This document shows, one piece after another, positions 12,880 through 19,133 of a DNA stretch of 20,097 nucleotides. The DNA is taken from IMG/VR virus record IMGVR_UViG_3300024346_006028, positions 1 to 20,097 of that record. One strand, given 5' to 3'. Each line of letters starts with the position of its first letter. Position 1 is the stretch's first letter. This stretch comes from a virus. A program made the position numbers and the translations under genes. The notes under the pieces were generated by a model. It ran no database searches, was not told the DNA's origin, and saw nothing but the letters and a program-made list of their open reading frames with translations.

Positions 12880-13278
12880 TTAGACGAGAGAGAGAATTTC
12901 GTGCCCGACAATGCCAGTTGGCTCAGAGCCAACGGATGCCTGATACTTCTTCACAGCCTCGTGTGTGTGAACACAGAAGATTCCAGTAGATGGGCAAGTG
13001 ATGCCCTTAGATACTAAATATTCTTGAACATTCTTGATTGCAACACCAGCGTCACCGCGCTTGAAGGTCTTGCCCGAATCGGCAACAGTTTTTTCGGCTT
13101 TAGCCTTTTTGACTGCTTTTACTTCTTCGACGATGATTTCTTCAATGGCAGCAGGTGCTTCTTCGGCAGGCGCTTCAGCAGCAGGTGCTTCTTCAGCCAC
13201 TACTTCTGCTTCAACTTCAGCAACCACTTCGGCAGGTGCTTCTGCTGGTGCTTCAGGGGTATCATTAAAATCTGTCAT
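12880..13278 (-). CDS. Peptidoglycan-binding-domain protein with Ala/Glu/Pro-rich N-terminus
   Basis: The 132-residue protein has two parts. Residues 8-46 are a low-complexity Ala/Pro/Glu/Val segment, followed by a Lys-rich joint (53-63). Residues about 72-131 match the PG_binding_1 fold: FKRGDAGVAIKNVQEYLVSK, then TGIFCVHTHEAVKKYQ and TGIVGHEIL, with the family's G(D/S)xG..V..lQ..L, tGxFg..T..AV..fQ and tGivG pattern. There is no signal peptide, so it would act from inside the cell after membrane opening, or as part of the virion. It starts 12 nt after the small membrane protein gene and both may be cotranscribed. It could be a separate wall-binding partner for the endolysin, which has no such domain, or a tail-associated wall binder. 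The ribosome site before the ATG is weak. Confidence 0.82.
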   Translation of the reverse strand: MTDFNDTPEAPAEAPAEVVAEVEAEVVAEEAPAAEAPAEEAPAAIEEIIVEEVKAVKKAKAEKTVADSGKTFKRGDAGVAIKNVQEYLVSKGITCPSTGIFCVHTHEAVKKYQASVGSEPTGIVGHEILSLV

Positions 13279-13541: not shown

Positions 13542-15390
13542 AATTAACACCAGAACGCTGTGAAATCCTGCGCATCAGGTCAGCCAGAACAGAGTGTGAA
13601 ACTTCCGAGTTGCCGTCAGTGACGGAATCAACTACGCCTCGTTTTTGTTCTATCAATTCGTATATGTCTTCATCAATAGTTCCAGCACACATAATGTAAT
13701 AAACTTGAACATTGTTTACTTGTCCGTAACGATGGCATCTATCTTCGGCTTGGTCGTGAATTGCGGGCGTCCAATCTTGCTGAACAAATAGCACATCAGA
13801 AGCCGCGGTTAATGTGATGCCAACTGAACCAGCCTGAAGGTTAAGGACAATAACCCGTGCGTTTGCATCGTTTTGAAATGTATCAATAGCATTTTGGCGA
13901 GCAGCCATCTCATCTTTTCCGCTTACTCTAAGACCGCCGTACTTTTTGGCGAGAGTATCTACGATGCTGACATTATGAGCAAACACAACAAGTTTTCTAT
14001 CGGTCGATTCCAAGAATGAATCAATCCACTCATAGGTTGCTTCTAACTTTGCCTCAGTAGCAAGTTTCTTTAGAACACCCGTCTTCACTAGATGCTGAGC
14101 GGAGTCTTTGGCCTTGTAGCCATTCTCTGCAAGAAATGAAATTAAATCTTTCTCAGCCCGCATGTAGGACATCATCTCGGTAGCCGAACCAGTCACCGTA
14201 ACAATGTTGCGGGATTTTGCTGGAAGGTCTTTGAGAACATCTTCTTTAATTCTTCGGATATAGCAAATTTGGCGCAATCTGATATTTAGTTCGTTTGTAT
14301 TTGTTGCTCCAGAAGTATCCCAGTGGTAGCCATCGTAATAAGCGCCCGCATACCGCTTCAGGAAGGCCCATTTGCCTCCAAACTTGCCAAGCACTCCCAA
14401 GATGTCTAATTGACTTACAATCTCTTGTGGGGCGTTTGTGATGGGTGTACCGCTTAATAACAGAACCATTCCCGACTGGGGAACATACTTTGCTATCTGC
14501 ATCACATTTTTAGTTCTGGTAGCGGCTGGGTTCTTGACATAATGCGACTCATCACAAATCATTGCCTTGAGATTCATGAACTTTAAAGCCCCGACAAACT
14601 TAGTTACAATGTCATAGTTTGTTATAATTACATCTGCTTTTGTCACTTCATCTTTGGAGTTGAGAATCTTGACTTCTCTATGGGGTGCCCACTTCTTCCA
14701 CTCTCGTGACCAGTTTTCTTTAAGCGACTTTGGGCATACGACAAAAACTGGGTAAGCCTCTTCTTTTTCAATAGCCGCAATGGCTTGAATGGTTTTACCA
14801 AGCCCCATTTGGTCGGCAATAAAGCACCTTCTAGTCTCAATTGCGTACTTAACTCCAGCCTTTTGATAAGGCATCAGTTCTCCAGTAAGACGGCTTATCT
14901 CTATGTCGGCATCTACGGCGGAAGAACTTTCAAGCAAATTAGCCGCAGACGAGATGTTGCCTTCTAGTTCGTCTCGCAGGTCTTGATGCAAATCAAAAGA
15001 GAACCTGAAAGCAAACTGCATTAGTTCTTGAGTAATGCTTGCTGTCCAGCGCTTATCTTTGGTGTCCCATTTTTTTCCAGGAAGGAACTTGATTGCGGCT
15101 ATAACTTCTTCGTTGTATTCAAATTCTACGATTGCCTGTTTTTTATATGGATATATGCGGCGGGCAATTTGCTTTGGCTTTTTAGTTTCTTCTTCCGCAA
15201 ATACATCAAGAGGGAAACCGTATGATTCAGCAAACTCGTGCAAATCATTAGTGTAGCGAGTGCTCACAGTCCAGACAGAGTGCTTTGGGTTCCATGAAGC
15301 GGTTGGAAGGTCGGCAATAATATCTACTAATGATTGCTCATAGGGAAATGTTATTGAGTAAAGATTTCCATGCTTTTTTATGGATTTCAT
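13540..15390 (-). CDS. SNF2-family DNA helicase/translocase, SMARCAL1-like
   Basis: The 616-residue protein has the complete SNF2 motor. Motif I is DQMGLGKT (193-200), motif II DESH (280-283) and motif III SGTP (313-316). The C-terminal half has QAGSVGITLTAA (519-530) and the motif VI arginine region DQAEDRCHRYGQ (546-557). The N-terminus contains two copies of a short beta module with a W-x(2-3)-K-x(2-3)-W core (about 8-60, with WNPKHSVW at 33-40, and 84-135, with WDTKDKRW at 108-115). This resembles the HARP substrate-recognition repeats of SMARCAL1, an annealing helicase that acts at forked DNA. A phage role in fork remodelling, recombination or replication is therefore inferred. The ATG overlaps the stop of the WhiB-like gene by 4 nt, so the two are translationally coupled. 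No nuclease domain is visible. It is unusual for such a gene to lie between lysis-like and tail genes. Confidence 0.93.
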   Translation of the reverse strand: MKSIKKHGNLYSITFPYEQSLVDIIADLPTASWNPKHSVWTVSTRYTNDLHEFAESYGFPLDVFAEEETKKPKQIARRIYPYKKQAIVEFEYNEEVIAAIKFLPGKKWDTKDKRWTASITQELMQFAFRFSFDLHQDLRDELEGNISSAANLLESSSAVDADIEISRLTGELMPYQKAGVKYAIETRRCFIADQMGLGKTIQAIAAIEKEEAYPVFVVCPKSLKENWSREWKKWAPHREVKILNSKDEVTKADVIITNYDIVTKFVGALKFMNLKAMICDESHYVKNPAATRTKNVMQIAKYVPQSGMVLLLSGTPITNAPQEIVSQLDILGVLGKFGGKWAFLKRYAGAYYDGYHWDTSGATNTNELNIRLRQICYIRRIKEDVLKDLPAKSRNIVTVTGSATEMMSYMRAEKDLISFLAENGYKAKDSAQHLVKTGVLKKLATEAKLEATYEWIDSFLESTDRKLVVFAHNVSIVDTLAKKYGGLRVSGKDEMAARQNAIDTFQNDANARVIVLNLQAGSVGITLTAASDVLFVQQDWTPAIHDQAEDRCHRYGQVNNVQVYYIMCAGTIDEDIYELIEQKRGVVDSVTDGNSEVSHSVLADLMRRISQRSGVN

Positions 15391-15641
15391 TTAGAGAAGT
15401 AAAGACTTTCGGTATAAAGCGCTCTTCGCTCTTTTGGCGTGGTATTTCCCCAAACCCCAAAAAATATCTCGTTCTTTATTGCATAGTCTAAACATTGTTT
15501 TGCAACTGGACATTTAGAGCAAATTTCTTTTGCTTTTCTATAAAGGGCAATTTCTTTTCCCATATGTTCTTCGGATGGAAAAAACATGTCTGTCATGCTC
15601 GTGCAAACTGCCTGCTCAAGCCACGGTTCTTTAATGCTCAT
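15387..15641 (-). CDS. WhiB-family iron-sulfur transcription regulator
   Basis: The 84-residue protein has the four WhiB cysteines C13, C41, C44 and C50 in C-x27-C-x2-C-x5-C spacing, which ligate a [4Fe-4S] cluster. The turn after the cluster reads GVWGN (62-66), where most family members have GVWGG. The following PKERRAL is the usual basic tail, though the C-terminal basic region is short. WhiB proteins bind the primary sigma factor and change promoter choice or sense redox state; they are found in actinobacteria and their phages. This one could repress or redirect host transcription, or control the phage's own late genes. The start has AAAGGGAA about 4-11 nt upstream and the gene ends inside the helicase start (ATGA). 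Confidence 0.93.
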   Translation of the reverse strand: MSIKEPWLEQAVCTSMTDMFFPSEEHMGKEIALYRKAKEICSKCPVAKQCLDYAIKNEIFFGVWGNTTPKERRALYTESLYFSK

Positions 15642-16179: not shown

Positions 16180-16344
16180 TTAGTCGCTTTTAAAAACTGC
16201 GCTAAGCAAATGTGCTACCAATGCGGTGACGCTAATTATAACCCCATAGGTGCGCGTTTGGCCGCTGAGCGTAATTAGAACTAATCCAGTACCGCCAAGT
16301 GTCCATGACAATTCATTAATTTGGTCCGCTATTTTTTTCAACAT
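16180..16344 (-). CDS. Putative holin (54 residues, two membrane helices)
   Basis: This short gene starts at ATG 16344-16342. TAGGAGA lies 6-7 nt upstream and overlaps the stop codon of the secreted protein gene, so the start is well supported. The protein begins with a basic/polar amphipathic piece (MLKKIADQINELS), has a first membrane helix (TLGGTGLVLITLSG, about 15-28), a short polar loop with QTRTYG, and a second helix (VIISVTALVAHLLSAVF, about 35-51), then a charged end. Small size, two helices and position after a putative endolysin fit a holin that opens the inner membrane at lysis. Holins share little sequence, so the call rests on topology and context. Confidence 0.72.
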   Translation of the reverse strand: MLKKIADQINELSWTLGGTGLVLITLSGQTRTYGVIISVTALVAHLLSAVFKSD

Positions 16345-16353
16345 ATTTGTCTC

Positions 16354-18552
16354 CTACCGTCTCGTTCTTGTGGAACGCTTTTTGTTTGTGTCGGGGGCAC
16401 CGCCGCCACCGCCGCTATTACCTGAACCGCCTGGTGTTCCAGAACCGCCAGAATTTCCTGTTGGTGCACCGCCTGCACCAGGGGCAGCAAGCATTGCTCC
16501 AGCAGCAGCCGCTGCTACAACTACTCTTCTTGTCCCAACATCAACCGCTGAACCGAGCGGGGCATATGCGTCAATTGCACCATCGAACACATTAATTTCA
16601 GATTCCATCGATTCTCTTACTTCGGTTGGTGCGTCCTGAACAGCCTCAACTAGTTGTGCTGCTTCTTCTGGTGTTACATTTGATATGTCAACAGCGTCAA
16701 AAATTTCTGTTGCCTGTTCTCCGTCAATGCTTTGCAAAACCTTTCCGCTCGTGGCAAGGTCTGTTGCTTGGTCTTCCGTAACGCCGTTTTCAATTACTGA
16801 ATCAACTGCGGCCGCAACCTGGTCTGGTGTAATTGTTTCGGATTCCAATACTCCAACCAGTTCCTCAAACTGCTCGTTTGAAATTGGCTCATCCAAGACC
16901 GCTCCGATAATTGCATCAAACTTCTCATCAGAGATTGGCTCGTCAAACACGGCTTCAAGGGCATTAGTAAACTGCTCTGTAGTTAAAGGCTCGTCAAAGA
17001 CCGCTTGTACCGCAGTATCAAACTGTTCGTCACTCAAAGACTTAGTGTCTTCAAACACTGCGCTAACAGCGTCTTCAAACTGAGCGTCAGAAAGCGGACC
17101 ATCAAACACTGCCGTAACCGCATCTTCAAACTGTGCTTCAGAAAGTTTGGTTGGGTCTTCAAAGACCGCATCTACAGCAGCAGCAAAGTTATCATTAGAC
17201 ATGGGTCCGTCAAACACTGATTCAATAACCGTAGCGAATTGAGTATCTGTTAGTTCTTGGTCAAGAAGCGAGGAGACAACAGCGGTAAGTTCTTCTGGCG
17301 TTCCTGCATCTGCAACTAAATCACCAACGGCATTTGCAAGTCCTGCATTAGACATAGGACCATCAAAAATATCTGCAACTGCAGCATCAGCAGCGTCTTG
17401 GACTGCTTCTGGAACAACTATCGGCGGCTCGTCCGTTTGTGTTGTTGTCTCTTGTTCTGGGGCATATTGTGGTACCGAGGCGGCGGGTCCATCACCCTCG
17501 GGGTAACTTTCGCTCGTGGGTGTCTCAACTGGGGTTACCTCCACTGGTGTATCAAATATTGTTTCAATAAGAGTCGTTGTAGTTGGGGAAATTGGTGTTT
17601 CTATTTCAGGAATTGAGACAGTGGTGTTTTCTGTTGGAGGTGTTTCAATAGGTGGAGGAACAACCAGTGGTTCCGTAGTAGTGGTATTATCGGGGTATGT
17701 GGTTGTGGTCGATACCTCTGTTGTTGTGGTTGTTGATGTTGTGGTGGTCGTGGTAGTAACGGGAGTTGCACTAACAGTAAATGTCTCAACCATTGACGAA
17801 TAGACACTAAGTGTGTCGTTGTCTGCACGAACCCTAAATTGGTACTCAGTTCCGTTTGTAAGGTTGTAAACAACAGCCCATGTATTTCCAGTTGAAATAG
17901 CATAGGAAGTTTCCCAGTTATTGTCTGAGAAGAAAACCGCATAGCGCTCTGGGTGTGCATATCCTTCACCTTCTTCTGGAGCATCCCAGGAAAGAGCAAC
18001 GCTTCCTTCATATGGAATTGCACGGGGGTTTGTTGGAGTCCTCATAGCCAATGGTGGCAAAGTTGTCGTGGTCGTACTCGTAGTTGTGCTGGTCGTAGTT
18101 GTTGTACTTGTTGTACTTGTTGTACTTGTCGTAGTTGTGGTGGGTGGAGCGTTTGTCGGAGCAGAAGCAGACTCCACTACATAGGAAGTTCCGTACCATG
18201 AATTGGGGTTTCCACAACAGACACTTGTGCGAAGACGATATGTCCCAGTGTTTTGAACACTGTAGGAAATGTATGAATCCAAGCCATAGTAGTCGTCATT
18301 TACGGCAAGAACCGTGTTGTCGCCGTCGTACAACCACAATTGGCTATCAATTCCGTACTGCTGAGCGTAGGTTCTTATGGTGAAAGTCGTACCAGTCTCA
18401 AGGACAAAGTAATAGTCGTTTGGTCCAGTTGTAGTAAAAGTTGTTGTTTGGGGGACTTCATCAGCCGCTTTTACGGCGCTGAAACCAAAACCACCCGTTA
18501 TGAACTGAAGCAAAGCGTAAAGTATTAAAGAAGCGCCTATTTTTCTATTCAC
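16354..18552 (-). CDS. Large secreted repeat protein with PPC-like and Fn3 domains
   Basis: The 732-residue protein starts with a signal peptide: N-terminal MNRK, a hydrophobic core and a likely cleavage after AVKA (26-29). Residues about 33-128 resemble a bacterial pre-peptidase C-terminal (PPC) beta domain, with DSQLWLYDGDNTVLAVNDDY and NTGTYRLRTS. A Thr/Ser linker (136-166) leads to an Fn3-like domain (about 172-262, with VALSWDAP and LTNGTEYQFRVRA) and a second Thr linker (264-296), then a Pro/Thr/Glu region. Residues about 400-590 are some eleven 17-19-residue helical repeats of form LSxxQFxxAVxAVFDxP. The end has a hydrophobic run (RRVVVAAAAAGAMLAAP), a Gly-rich stretch and a basic tail KKRSTRTRR. 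No catalytic domain is seen. A GTG start without Shine-Dalgarno follows TATAAT by 6 nt. It lies between the endolysin and holin candidates. An outer-envelope or adhesion role, or a lysis aid, is possible; function is unknown. Confidence 0.87.
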   Translation of the reverse strand: MNRKIGASLILYALLQFITGGFGFSAVKAADEVPQTTTFTTTGPNDYYFVLETGTTFTIRTYAQQYGIDSQLWLYDGDNTVLAVNDDYYGLDSYISYSVQNTGTYRLRTSVCCGNPNSWYGTSYVVESASAPTNAPPTTTTTSTTSTTSTTTTTSTTTSTTTTTLPPLAMRTPTNPRAIPYEGSVALSWDAPEEGEGYAHPERYAVFFSDNNWETSYAISTGNTWAVVYNLTNGTEYQFRVRADNDTLSVYSSMVETFTVSATPVTTTTTTTSTTTTTEVSTTTTYPDNTTTTEPLVVPPPIETPPTENTTVSIPEIETPISPTTTTLIETIFDTPVEVTPVETPTSESYPEGDGPAASVPQYAPEQETTTQTDEPPIVVPEAVQDAADAAVADIFDGPMSNAGLANAVGDLVADAGTPEELTAVVSSLLDQELTDTQFATVIESVFDGPMSNDNFAAAVDAVFEDPTKLSEAQFEDAVTAVFDGPLSDAQFEDAVSAVFEDTKSLSDEQFDTAVQAVFDEPLTTEQFTNALEAVFDEPISDEKFDAIIGAVLDEPISNEQFEELVGVLESETITPDQVAAAVDSVIENGVTEDQATDLATSGKVLQSIDGEQATEIFDAVDISNVTPEEAAQLVEAVQDAPTEVRESMESEINVFDGAIDAYAPLGSAVDVGTRRVVVAAAAAGAMLAAPGAGGAPTGNSGGSGTPGGSGNSGGGGGAPDTNKKRSTRTRR
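16783..17355 (-). repeat. Tandem repeats coding for 17-19-residue helical units in the secreted protein
   Basis: About eleven units, each near 51-57 bases, code for residues 400-590. The best preserved central units read LSEAQFEDAVTAVFDGP, LSDAQFEDAVSAVFED, LSDEQFDTAVQAVFDEP and LTTEQFTNALEAVFDEP. The protein pattern is kept better than the DNA, which points to selection on the repeat fold. Outer units are more diverged (for example ITPDQVAAAVDSVIENG). Confidence 0.8.
17665..17763 (-). repeat. Thr-rich linker repeat (second linker)
   Basis: This codes for residues about 264-296 of the secreted protein: runs of Thr broken by Ser, Glu, Val and Pro. The DNA is built from variants of ACN codons. 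It separates the Fn3 domain from the Pro/Glu-rich region and would be an extended, probably glycosylatable spacer. Confidence 0.7.
18055..18147 (-). repeat. Thr/Ser-rich linker repeat (first linker)
   Basis: This codes for residues about 136-166, mainly Thr with regular Ser. The DNA shows short direct repeats of a 9-base unit (ACAAGTACA-like, three copies near 18105-18130). It links the PPC-like domain to the Fn3 domain. Confidence 0.7.
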
Positions 18553-18605: not shown

Positions 18606-19133
18606 TTACGCAGGCTTAGGAAGTGCCCGCCATGCTGCTTCAAATTTTGCAGCATCTTTTGCCATCTCTGGAGAAAGTTCTACATGCAACCACATACCGC
18701 CGAAACTTCCAGCGTTATCATCGACGGTAAAAATTTTTACCCCAGCAGAATTTTCGCCTCTTGAGCACCTGAACCCGCGACCATAGCCCTTGTTCTTGTC
18801 TTTAGTGTTTGCATCATATGCATAGTCGTGAATTTCTTCAATGCCGAGTTCTTTGGTGTGAGCAAGGAACCAGTCCCACATAGCAACGCCGACTTTGCGG
18901 TCTGAATAACCAATGTCGATAGCAGCACCAGTGGCGTGAACTGACATCCACTTTTCCATACCTGGGTCGCCCATCTTCTTGCCTTCAGTATGAGAATTTC
19001 TCATCAATCGCGGGGAATAAATCCCCAAATTCTTGGTTTTCCAACGGGCCGCACAAAGCGCATTTAATTTTTCCGTACCTGGCTGAGCACCTTTTCCGTC
19101 AAAACTGGGGTAATAAGAATATTTTCTTGGCAT
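18606..19133 (-). CDS. M15-type peptidoglycan peptidase, putative endolysin
   Basis: The 175-residue protein carries the zinc-site pattern of the M15/VanY-type peptidases: SVHATGAAIDI (64-74) gives His66 and Asp73, and WLHVEL (148-153) gives His150. These enzymes cut peptide stems or cross-links of peptidoglycan. The length fits a single catalytic domain; no separate wall-binding domain or signal peptide is present, so export to the wall would need a holin. The N-terminal 60 residues contain KLNALCAARWKTKNLGIYSP, which probably packs on the catalytic domain. It starts a block with the secreted repeat protein and a holin-like gene. The ATG at 19133 has no Shine-Dalgarno but has TATACT 6 nt upstream. 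An alternative role is a virion-associated wall peptidase for DNA entry. Confidence 0.88.
   Translation of the reverse strand: MPRKYSYYPSFDGKGAQPGTEKLNALCAARWKTKNLGIYSPRLMRNSHTEGKKMGDPGMEKWMSVHATGAAIDIGYSDRKVGVAMWDWFLAHTKELGIEEIHDYAYDANTKDKNKGYGRGFRCSRGENSAGVKIFTVDDNAGSFGGMWLHVELSPEMAKDAAKFEAAWRALPKPA

Follow-up and report, generated by a model that had tools for sequence, protein, structure and literature searches.

We propose, with a probability of about 0.7, that the ORF analysed here encodes the larger protein of a host-type module of two genes for the display of membrane-anchored proteins at the cell surface. The ORF lies in a window of 20,097 nucleotides (the whole stretch of viral DNA that was analysed, IMG/VR record IMGVR_UViG_3300024346_006028), and the small half of the module, a partner with two transmembrane helices (two-TM partner), is encoded just downstream (Table 1). 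Hundreds of actinophages carry this gene pair, in most cases next to, and not as part of, a separate endolysin/holin cassette. We regard it as a host-type surface-protein module because the pairing of its genes is obligate and because bacteria hold single copies of it without phage or lysis genes.

Table 1. Features of the module and its peptidase neighbour in the window (residues refer to the surface protein)
Feature	Position	Strand	Details
Surface-protein gene	16354..18552	minus	732 aa (732 codons), GTG start, TAG stop
Signal peptide	18466..18552	minus	residues 1-29, cleavage between V-K-A and A (A-x-A type); sequence and rule-based check
PPC-like domain	18157..18441	minus	residues ~38-132; weak alone, one of 65 relatives has a Pfam PPC call
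Thr linker 1	18055..18147	minus	residues 136-166
Fn3 domain	17767..18051	minus	residues ~168-262; phmmer match to titin
Thr/Pro/Glu-rich linker	17401..17766	minus	residues 263-384; sequence
Regular 17-residue helical repeats	16783..17253	minus	residues 434-590; AlphaFold pLDDT about 90
Conserved C-terminal domain	16525..16782	minus	residues 591-676, ends in YAPLGSAVDVGTRR; (near-)invariant columns in phage and host proteins
C-terminal transmembrane segment	16471..16524	minus	residues ~677-694; hydrophobicity and AlphaFold helix 672-688
Gly-rich spacer and basic tail	16357..16470	minus	residues 695-732; sequence; disordered in AlphaFold model
Partner, 54-aa two-TM protein	16344..16180	minus	TLSGxT motif at hairpin; phrog_29041 (function unknown)
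M15-like metallopeptidase neighbour	18606..19133	minus	motifs HATGxAxD...WxHxEL; outside module

Architecture of the surface protein

A first IMG/VR scan with the surface protein returned 55 relatives. Compared with the nearest of them (L001), dN/dS is 0.13 for the whole gene and 0.08 for its C-terminal part, i.e. the gene is under purifying selection, and these low values mark it as a working gene. The 732-residue ORF, which a sequence-only reading of the DNA had proposed, is real and lies on the minus strand. Its N-terminus has the signal peptide claimed in that reading, with an n-region (NRK), a hydrophobic core and a V-K-A cleavage site near residue 29. By a simple rule 80 of the 85 full-length relatives that are distinct share this architecture, and as a control none of the internal windows of these relatives (0/85) is equally hydrophobic. 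The window protein has no lipobox, no Cys being present before residue ~112.

The Fn3 domain suggested earlier is confirmed by a phmmer match of residues 182-246 to a titin domain (E = 3e-4) and by Pfam fn3 calls in relatives; in the window protein Pfam does not call fn3. For the PPC-like domain, Pfam makes no call in the window protein but one among 65 relatives (E = 1.7e-6), so that this suggestion leans mainly on relatives. The two linkers described as Thr-rich indeed contain 67% and 54% Thr. In 65 full-length relatives Pfam finds fn3 (13), PA14 (11), LCCL (3), beta-helix (2), SUEL lectin (1) and PPC (1) all of them binding or adhesion types, as well as one weak match to a phosphatase N-terminal (Fn3-like) domain; a catalytic domain was found in none of the relatives, in line with the earlier remark that none can be seen in the window protein.

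Autocorrelation of the window protein peaks at 17, 34 and 51, and a strict 17-residue motif matches eight times in residues 434-590, compared to a mean of 0.001 in shuffled sequences. Degenerate units stretch the solenoid to about residues 386-652, and with these included the original count of about eleven repeats is a fair one. An AlphaFold model of residues 385-732, calculated with 26 relatives (mean pLDDT 83, about 90 in the repeats), contains a helix of ~11 residues per 17 residues, i.e. an alpha-solenoid, followed by a helix (residues 672-688) that, in the model, would fit a single membrane pass, and finally by disorder. With regard to known alpha-solenoid families (HEAT, ARM, PPR, PUF, TPR), Foldseek (best E 6e-4, TM-score 0.16) and a VIA comparison (best Z 12.6, to a designed protein and in the usual range for helical repeats) suggest that the neighbours of the modelled solenoid among solved structures are generic helical-repeat arrangements. 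Among viral structure models (BFVD) the true relatives either are phage proteins without a name or bear the label 'Fibronectin type III', 'PA14' or 'TerB_like'. We read the label 'TerB_like' as a generic helical-repeat likeness and not as a function, and the same holds for weak Pfam matches to GatB_YqeY, Glycos_trans_3N, Ac75 and SpoVIF, all of which lie under the curated cut-offs. The repeats had been put forward as a possible new helical-repeat family, yet they are absent in 37 of 107 distinct relatives; we thus reject them as the defining feature of the family, in which they appear to be an optional stalk.

What is constant across the relatives is a C-terminal domain of ~100 residues, the membrane helix and the two-TM partner. 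The domain has the family motif Y-x-P-x-G/D-S-x-V-x-V-x-x-R-R, and searches of Pfam, NCBIfam, PADLOC and PDB sequences gave no match covering it. A C-terminal hydrophobic segment is present in 78 of 85 distinct full-length relatives, which supports the earlier idea of surface retention through the C-terminus, and the ending described for the window protein (Arg-flanked hydrophobic run, Gly-rich spacer, KKRSTRTRR tail) is present in full, its helix being Ala-rich and of moderate hydrophobicity. With LPxTG proteins, the substrates of sortases, the window protein has in common the signal peptide, a C-terminal motif, the hydrophobic segment and the basic tail. However, no LPxTG precedes its C-terminal helix, where YAPLGSAVDVGTRR stands, and instead of LPxTG it has a folded domain of ~100 aa, the RR motif and a dedicated two-TM partner. 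A scan of related loci found LPxTG in separate genes only.

The two-TM partner and the bacterial copies of the pair

In the window the partner gene starts 9 bp downstream of the surface gene, and its Shine-Dalgarno sequence AGGAGA overlaps the TAG stop of the latter. Across the family the partner is a two-helix membrane protein of 54-66 aa, and T-L-S-G-x-T at the hairpin is invariant. With a partner HMM, a homologue that directly follows the surface protein, overlaps it or is fused to it was found in 55 of 55 evaluable loci of the first survey, a count that includes the window, L057 and L058 and leaves out L006, L017 and L052, where the C-terminal end is off the contig. Of two independent IMG/VR scans, one used only the small protein as query and found 421 relatives, and the other used only the C-terminal domain and found at least 489; the best 80 of each scan were kept. 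Among the best 80 of each, the surface protein accompanies the small protein at 79 of 79 evaluable loci and the two-TM partner accompanies the C-domain at 79 of 79, i.e. 158 of 158 evaluable loci are paired, the two exceptions being contig-end cuts. At two loci (L173 and L214) one extra secreted-protein gene sits between the surface gene and the partner, in L214 with an LPVTG end. Overlaps of 1 or 4 nt occur in 63 of the 97 split pairs. The partner is often translationally coupled to the surface gene, and by its distribution the two-TM protein is an obligate partner of the surface protein.

Surface protein and partner may also form a single ORF, as in L034/L035/L038, L043/L046-L049, L057, L058 and nine bacterial proteins, and on the tree there are at least five changes between the split and the fused state. 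In L032 the sequence ...TATCAGGAGAACTAACCATGAAAAGA... provides a stop and then a start between the two genes, and in L035 ...TACGAGGAGGAAACAATGAAAAGG... is an open frame in which the Shine-Dalgarno sequence and the ATG are kept in frame. A good Shine-Dalgarno sequence and an ATG are found at the old two-TM start in the fused ORFs of L035 (around 9285), L043, L046, L048 and L049. Because these elements survive in the fused ORF, internal initiation could still yield free partner, and the phage fusions may thus give both fused and free partner from one ORF. In an AlphaFold model of the fused L035 protein, a folded domain is followed by a membrane helix, which a long disordered linker joins to a hairpin of two helices, the hairpin with modest confidence (pLDDT about 58-78).

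Among named phages, neither megablast of the window nor tblastn of the 54-aa protein gave a match, and the 65-aa version of the partner and the C-domain match DSL-LC01 only. The matching protein, WJZ48438.1 (hypothetical protein, Actinomycetia phage DSL-LC01, OQ999401), has a homologous C-domain fused to the two-TM module; unlike the window protein, it contains no 17-residue repeats and is encoded away from the annotated endolysin. No discussion of WJZ48438.1 was found in the accessible part of the DSL-LC01 paper (PMC10611076).

The pair also occurs in bacterial chromosomes. In a sample of 151 genomes of one bacterial family the C-domain is present in 13 and the two-TM model in 14, including the same 13 places, so that all 13 genomes with the C-domain show the pairing (hypergeometric p 7e-18). 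The family lies in a class holding an 'Acidimicrobiaceae' MAG, and the carriers are MAGs, almost all of one Acidimicrobiia family. A 14th bacterial carrier (G446/L086, fused) came from the class sample, and a phylum sample of 396 genomes added none. Pair members are together or fused in 14 of 14 bacterial chromosomes, always as a single copy; of those in the family sample, 8 are fused and 5 are split. As there is one copy per genome, we reject a general sorting signal of the bacterium, i.e. a sortase-like system serving many proteins. As far as longer flanks were read, the copies are surrounded by housekeeping genes, assigned by eye from their sequences to phosphoglycerate mutase, dCTP deaminase, oxidoreductases, MFS and ABC transporters, VOC and DedA proteins, and no phage or lysis genes were seen in these longer flanks.

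The pair of the Acidimicrobiia MAGs (L059, L060, L061; G001, G002, G003) shares with the phage module the C-domain, the membrane helix and the two-TM partner, in split or fused form, and likewise the signal peptide and the Thr linkers, but differs in its N-terminal domains and in being chromosomal, without phage or lysis genes. NCBIfam and PADLOC have no family for the pair of Acidimicrobiia and phages. The homologues in 14 bacterial genomes bear out the host-like origin that had been suspected, and from architecture and context capture from bacteria is likely. In the unrooted tree phage and host sequences group with two changes, and a topology with all phages in one clade is not rejected (p-AU 0.27). 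A gammaproteobacterial-MAG contig (L058, JAURLY010000091.1) bears a fused module together with an endolysin and a holin; its lysis genes are of actinophage type, and it is most likely a misbinned phage. One module-bearing bacterial genome also encodes a BNR-like protein resembling some phage N-terminal domains (L085, 10768-13608), and this gene is a possible donor of exchanged domains.

Roles considered for the module

Related phages retain the C-terminal part and swap the adhesive N-terminal part. In L002 and L009 the part after the linker is 91% identical, with no detectable homology before the linker end, and the same syntenic place holds PA14 and Fn3 domains in L050, a beta-helix in L030 and a BNR-like domain in L024. 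Secreted LPxTG proteins are encoded in the same operon as the module at eight loci (8/8 members of that family). Proteins with such signals, e.g. LPKTG-hydrophobic-RRRESQ, adjoin the pair or lie between its genes in L024 (9352-10806), L025, L028, L039, L050, L051, L054, L055 and L214 (4396-5580), and these phages seem to wall-anchor their own proteins through the host sortase. Near the module, L045 (10521-12302), and also L041 and L044, encode a secreted protease that has Thr linkers and is, by eye, subtilisin-like.

In the mechanism that we envisage, the large protein would be exported via Sec until its C-terminal helix halts it in the cytoplasmic membrane, where the two-TM partner would complete, stabilise or assemble the anchor. 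The Y-P-GS-V-V-RR segment and the TLSGxT hairpin loop perhaps mediate the contact, and both would lie at the outer membrane face if the partner is oriented N-in/C-in. The solenoid and the Thr linkers would raise the binding domains through the wall. O-mannosylation of Thr-rich linkers is known from actinobacteria, and those of the surface protein are possibly modified in this way. After late expression, a binding domain of the phage's choice would cover infected cells, or their debris, and this coat might mask receptors, exclude competing or sibling phages and protect progeny. The phage copies are kept in the late tail/lysis region, and fast exchange of N-terminal domains on a fixed anchor fits such a masking or exclusion role. 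We tentatively infer that the most likely role is to remodel the surface of the infected cell at a late stage, in the form of superinfection exclusion or of receptor masking.

Conceivable, if rather unlikely, is instead a surface-type auxiliary gene, an adhesin captured from a host that would benefit the cell during infection or lysogeny, e.g. in particle attachment, aggregation or grazer defence, and not exclude phages. The module has close cellular counterparts, with RCC1-like, DUF4082-like or DUF285-like N-termini (by eye), only binding-type domains were found, and DSL-LC01, which bears a relative, was predicted to be lysogenic (PMC10611076). However, the placement is late and in the lysis region, a lytic phage would gain little from host adhesion, and the N-terminal domains turn over fast whereas the anchor stays.

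A late position would also suit a lysis component, in which the partner would act as a two-TM (co-)holin like LysF1a and the large protein as an envelope-disrupting or lysis-timing factor directed at the actinobacterial wall. The M15-like metallopeptidase, probably an endolysin by its motifs, is encoded about 50 bp upstream of the surface gene (no match in Pfam, PHROGs or PDB sequences). An M15-like peptidase or an M15 plus PG-binding endolysin lies no more than a few genes away in 45 of 55 loci, and a peptidase or endolysin within 4 kb of the pair in 69 of 107 distinct relatives, so that the position near lysis genes is recurrent, in keeping with the lysis-like block described earlier. Moreover, the partner, with 54 aa and two hydrophobic helices, is in the size range of holins (one to four TM helices) and resembles LysF1a in this respect (PMC13056207). 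Yet a separate phrog_443-type holin is found nearby in 62 of 107 relatives and a further single-TM protein in 40 of 107; it is these neighbouring proteins of ~77-110 aa, not the partner, that match the holin phrog_443. The partner has no holin family match, its only clear match in PHROGs being phrog_29041, with none in Pfam. Nor is it a free-standing lysis gene, since it is fused to or paired with the surface protein in 14 of 14 bacterial genomes and in phages, the fusion occurring in several lineages and the chromosomal pair of Acidimicrobiia lacking lysis genes, and six loci (L032, L036, L041, L044, L045 and L057) hold the pair apart from peptidase genes, and in L032, L036, L041 and L057 it also stands clear of endolysin genes. 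We thus reject the two-TM gene as a holin: of the proposed placement between endolysin and holin the upstream peptidase stands, whereas the downstream 'holin' is replaced by an obligate partner. As the cassette is complete without the pair, as six loci keep the two apart and as the bacterial copies have no lysis genes, the association with lysis is one of place, i.e. the late operon, and not of identity, and a lysis component, to which the frequent proximity of endolysin and holin genes lends some weight, is improbable.

Several further observations concern this neighbourhood. The M15-like peptidase family is carried by 37 of 55 surveyed loci. Holin-like proteins matching phrog_443 in L030 (11898-12230) and L058 (2910-3212) score higher to phrog_26427 'nuclease', probably a mislabelled family. 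In the window, positions 12880-13278, between the major tail protein and a helicase, encode a protein of 132 aa that has a PG_binding_1 domain and whose N-terminus is acidic and rich in Ala, Glu and Val, i.e. a wall-binding part without catalytic domain, and a WhiB-like regulator is encoded downstream of the module (15387-15641), like in other actinophages.

Finally, a virion structural protein (tail fibre or decoration) is very improbable: Fn3, PA14 and beta-helix domains are known in tail proteins too, and Fn3 minor tail proteins are encoded just upstream in L002 and L007, but the signal peptide (80/85), the C-terminal membrane helix with its two-TM partner and the homologues in bacterial chromosomes argue against it, and structural homologues were looked for in PHROGs and not found, the surface protein matching no structural (tail or head) family.

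Relation to known systems and implications

The window protein is large and multi-domain, lacks a lipobox and has a membrane helix and a partner, whereas Llp, whose host is Gram-negative, is a small lipoprotein of the outer membrane. T5 Llp and similar proteins are phage-made and block receptors on the host surface (PMC9586334), and by analogy receptor blocking at the host surface might be a likeness shared by the display module. LysF1a and LysF1b of F1 mycobacteriophages are a holin-like pair, LysF1a being described as a lysis-cassette protein (PMC13056207). LysF1a shares with our partner the small two-TM build and the position near endolysin genes in actinophages; however, it is not tied to a surface protein, whereas the two-TM protein of the window type is paired or fused with one, also in bacterial chromosomes.

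Phage-made surface proteins are a known kind, and what is new is the obligate two-TM partner, common to bacteria and many phages; a literature search found nothing describing the pair. At roughly even odds, we are dealing with an undescribed two-component mode of anchoring, in which a C-domain and helix need a two-TM partner and which is used by one protein per Acidimicrobiia genome and as a domain-swapping cassette in hundreds of actinophages.

A small two-TM gene beside an endolysin is normally annotated as holin, and the module may serve as a warning, as this is probably wrong here. The gene pair, whose linkage is obligate in bacterial chromosomes as well as in hundreds of viral contigs, is unnamed in the annotation libraries searched, and it provides a marker for actinophages. 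Aquatic actinobacteria and their phages are abundant, and the effects of such phages on the host surface have hardly been described. For these bacteria the pair offers a candidate, open to testing, for superinfection exclusion or for remodelling of the surface and, possibly, a new mode of membrane anchoring of proteins.
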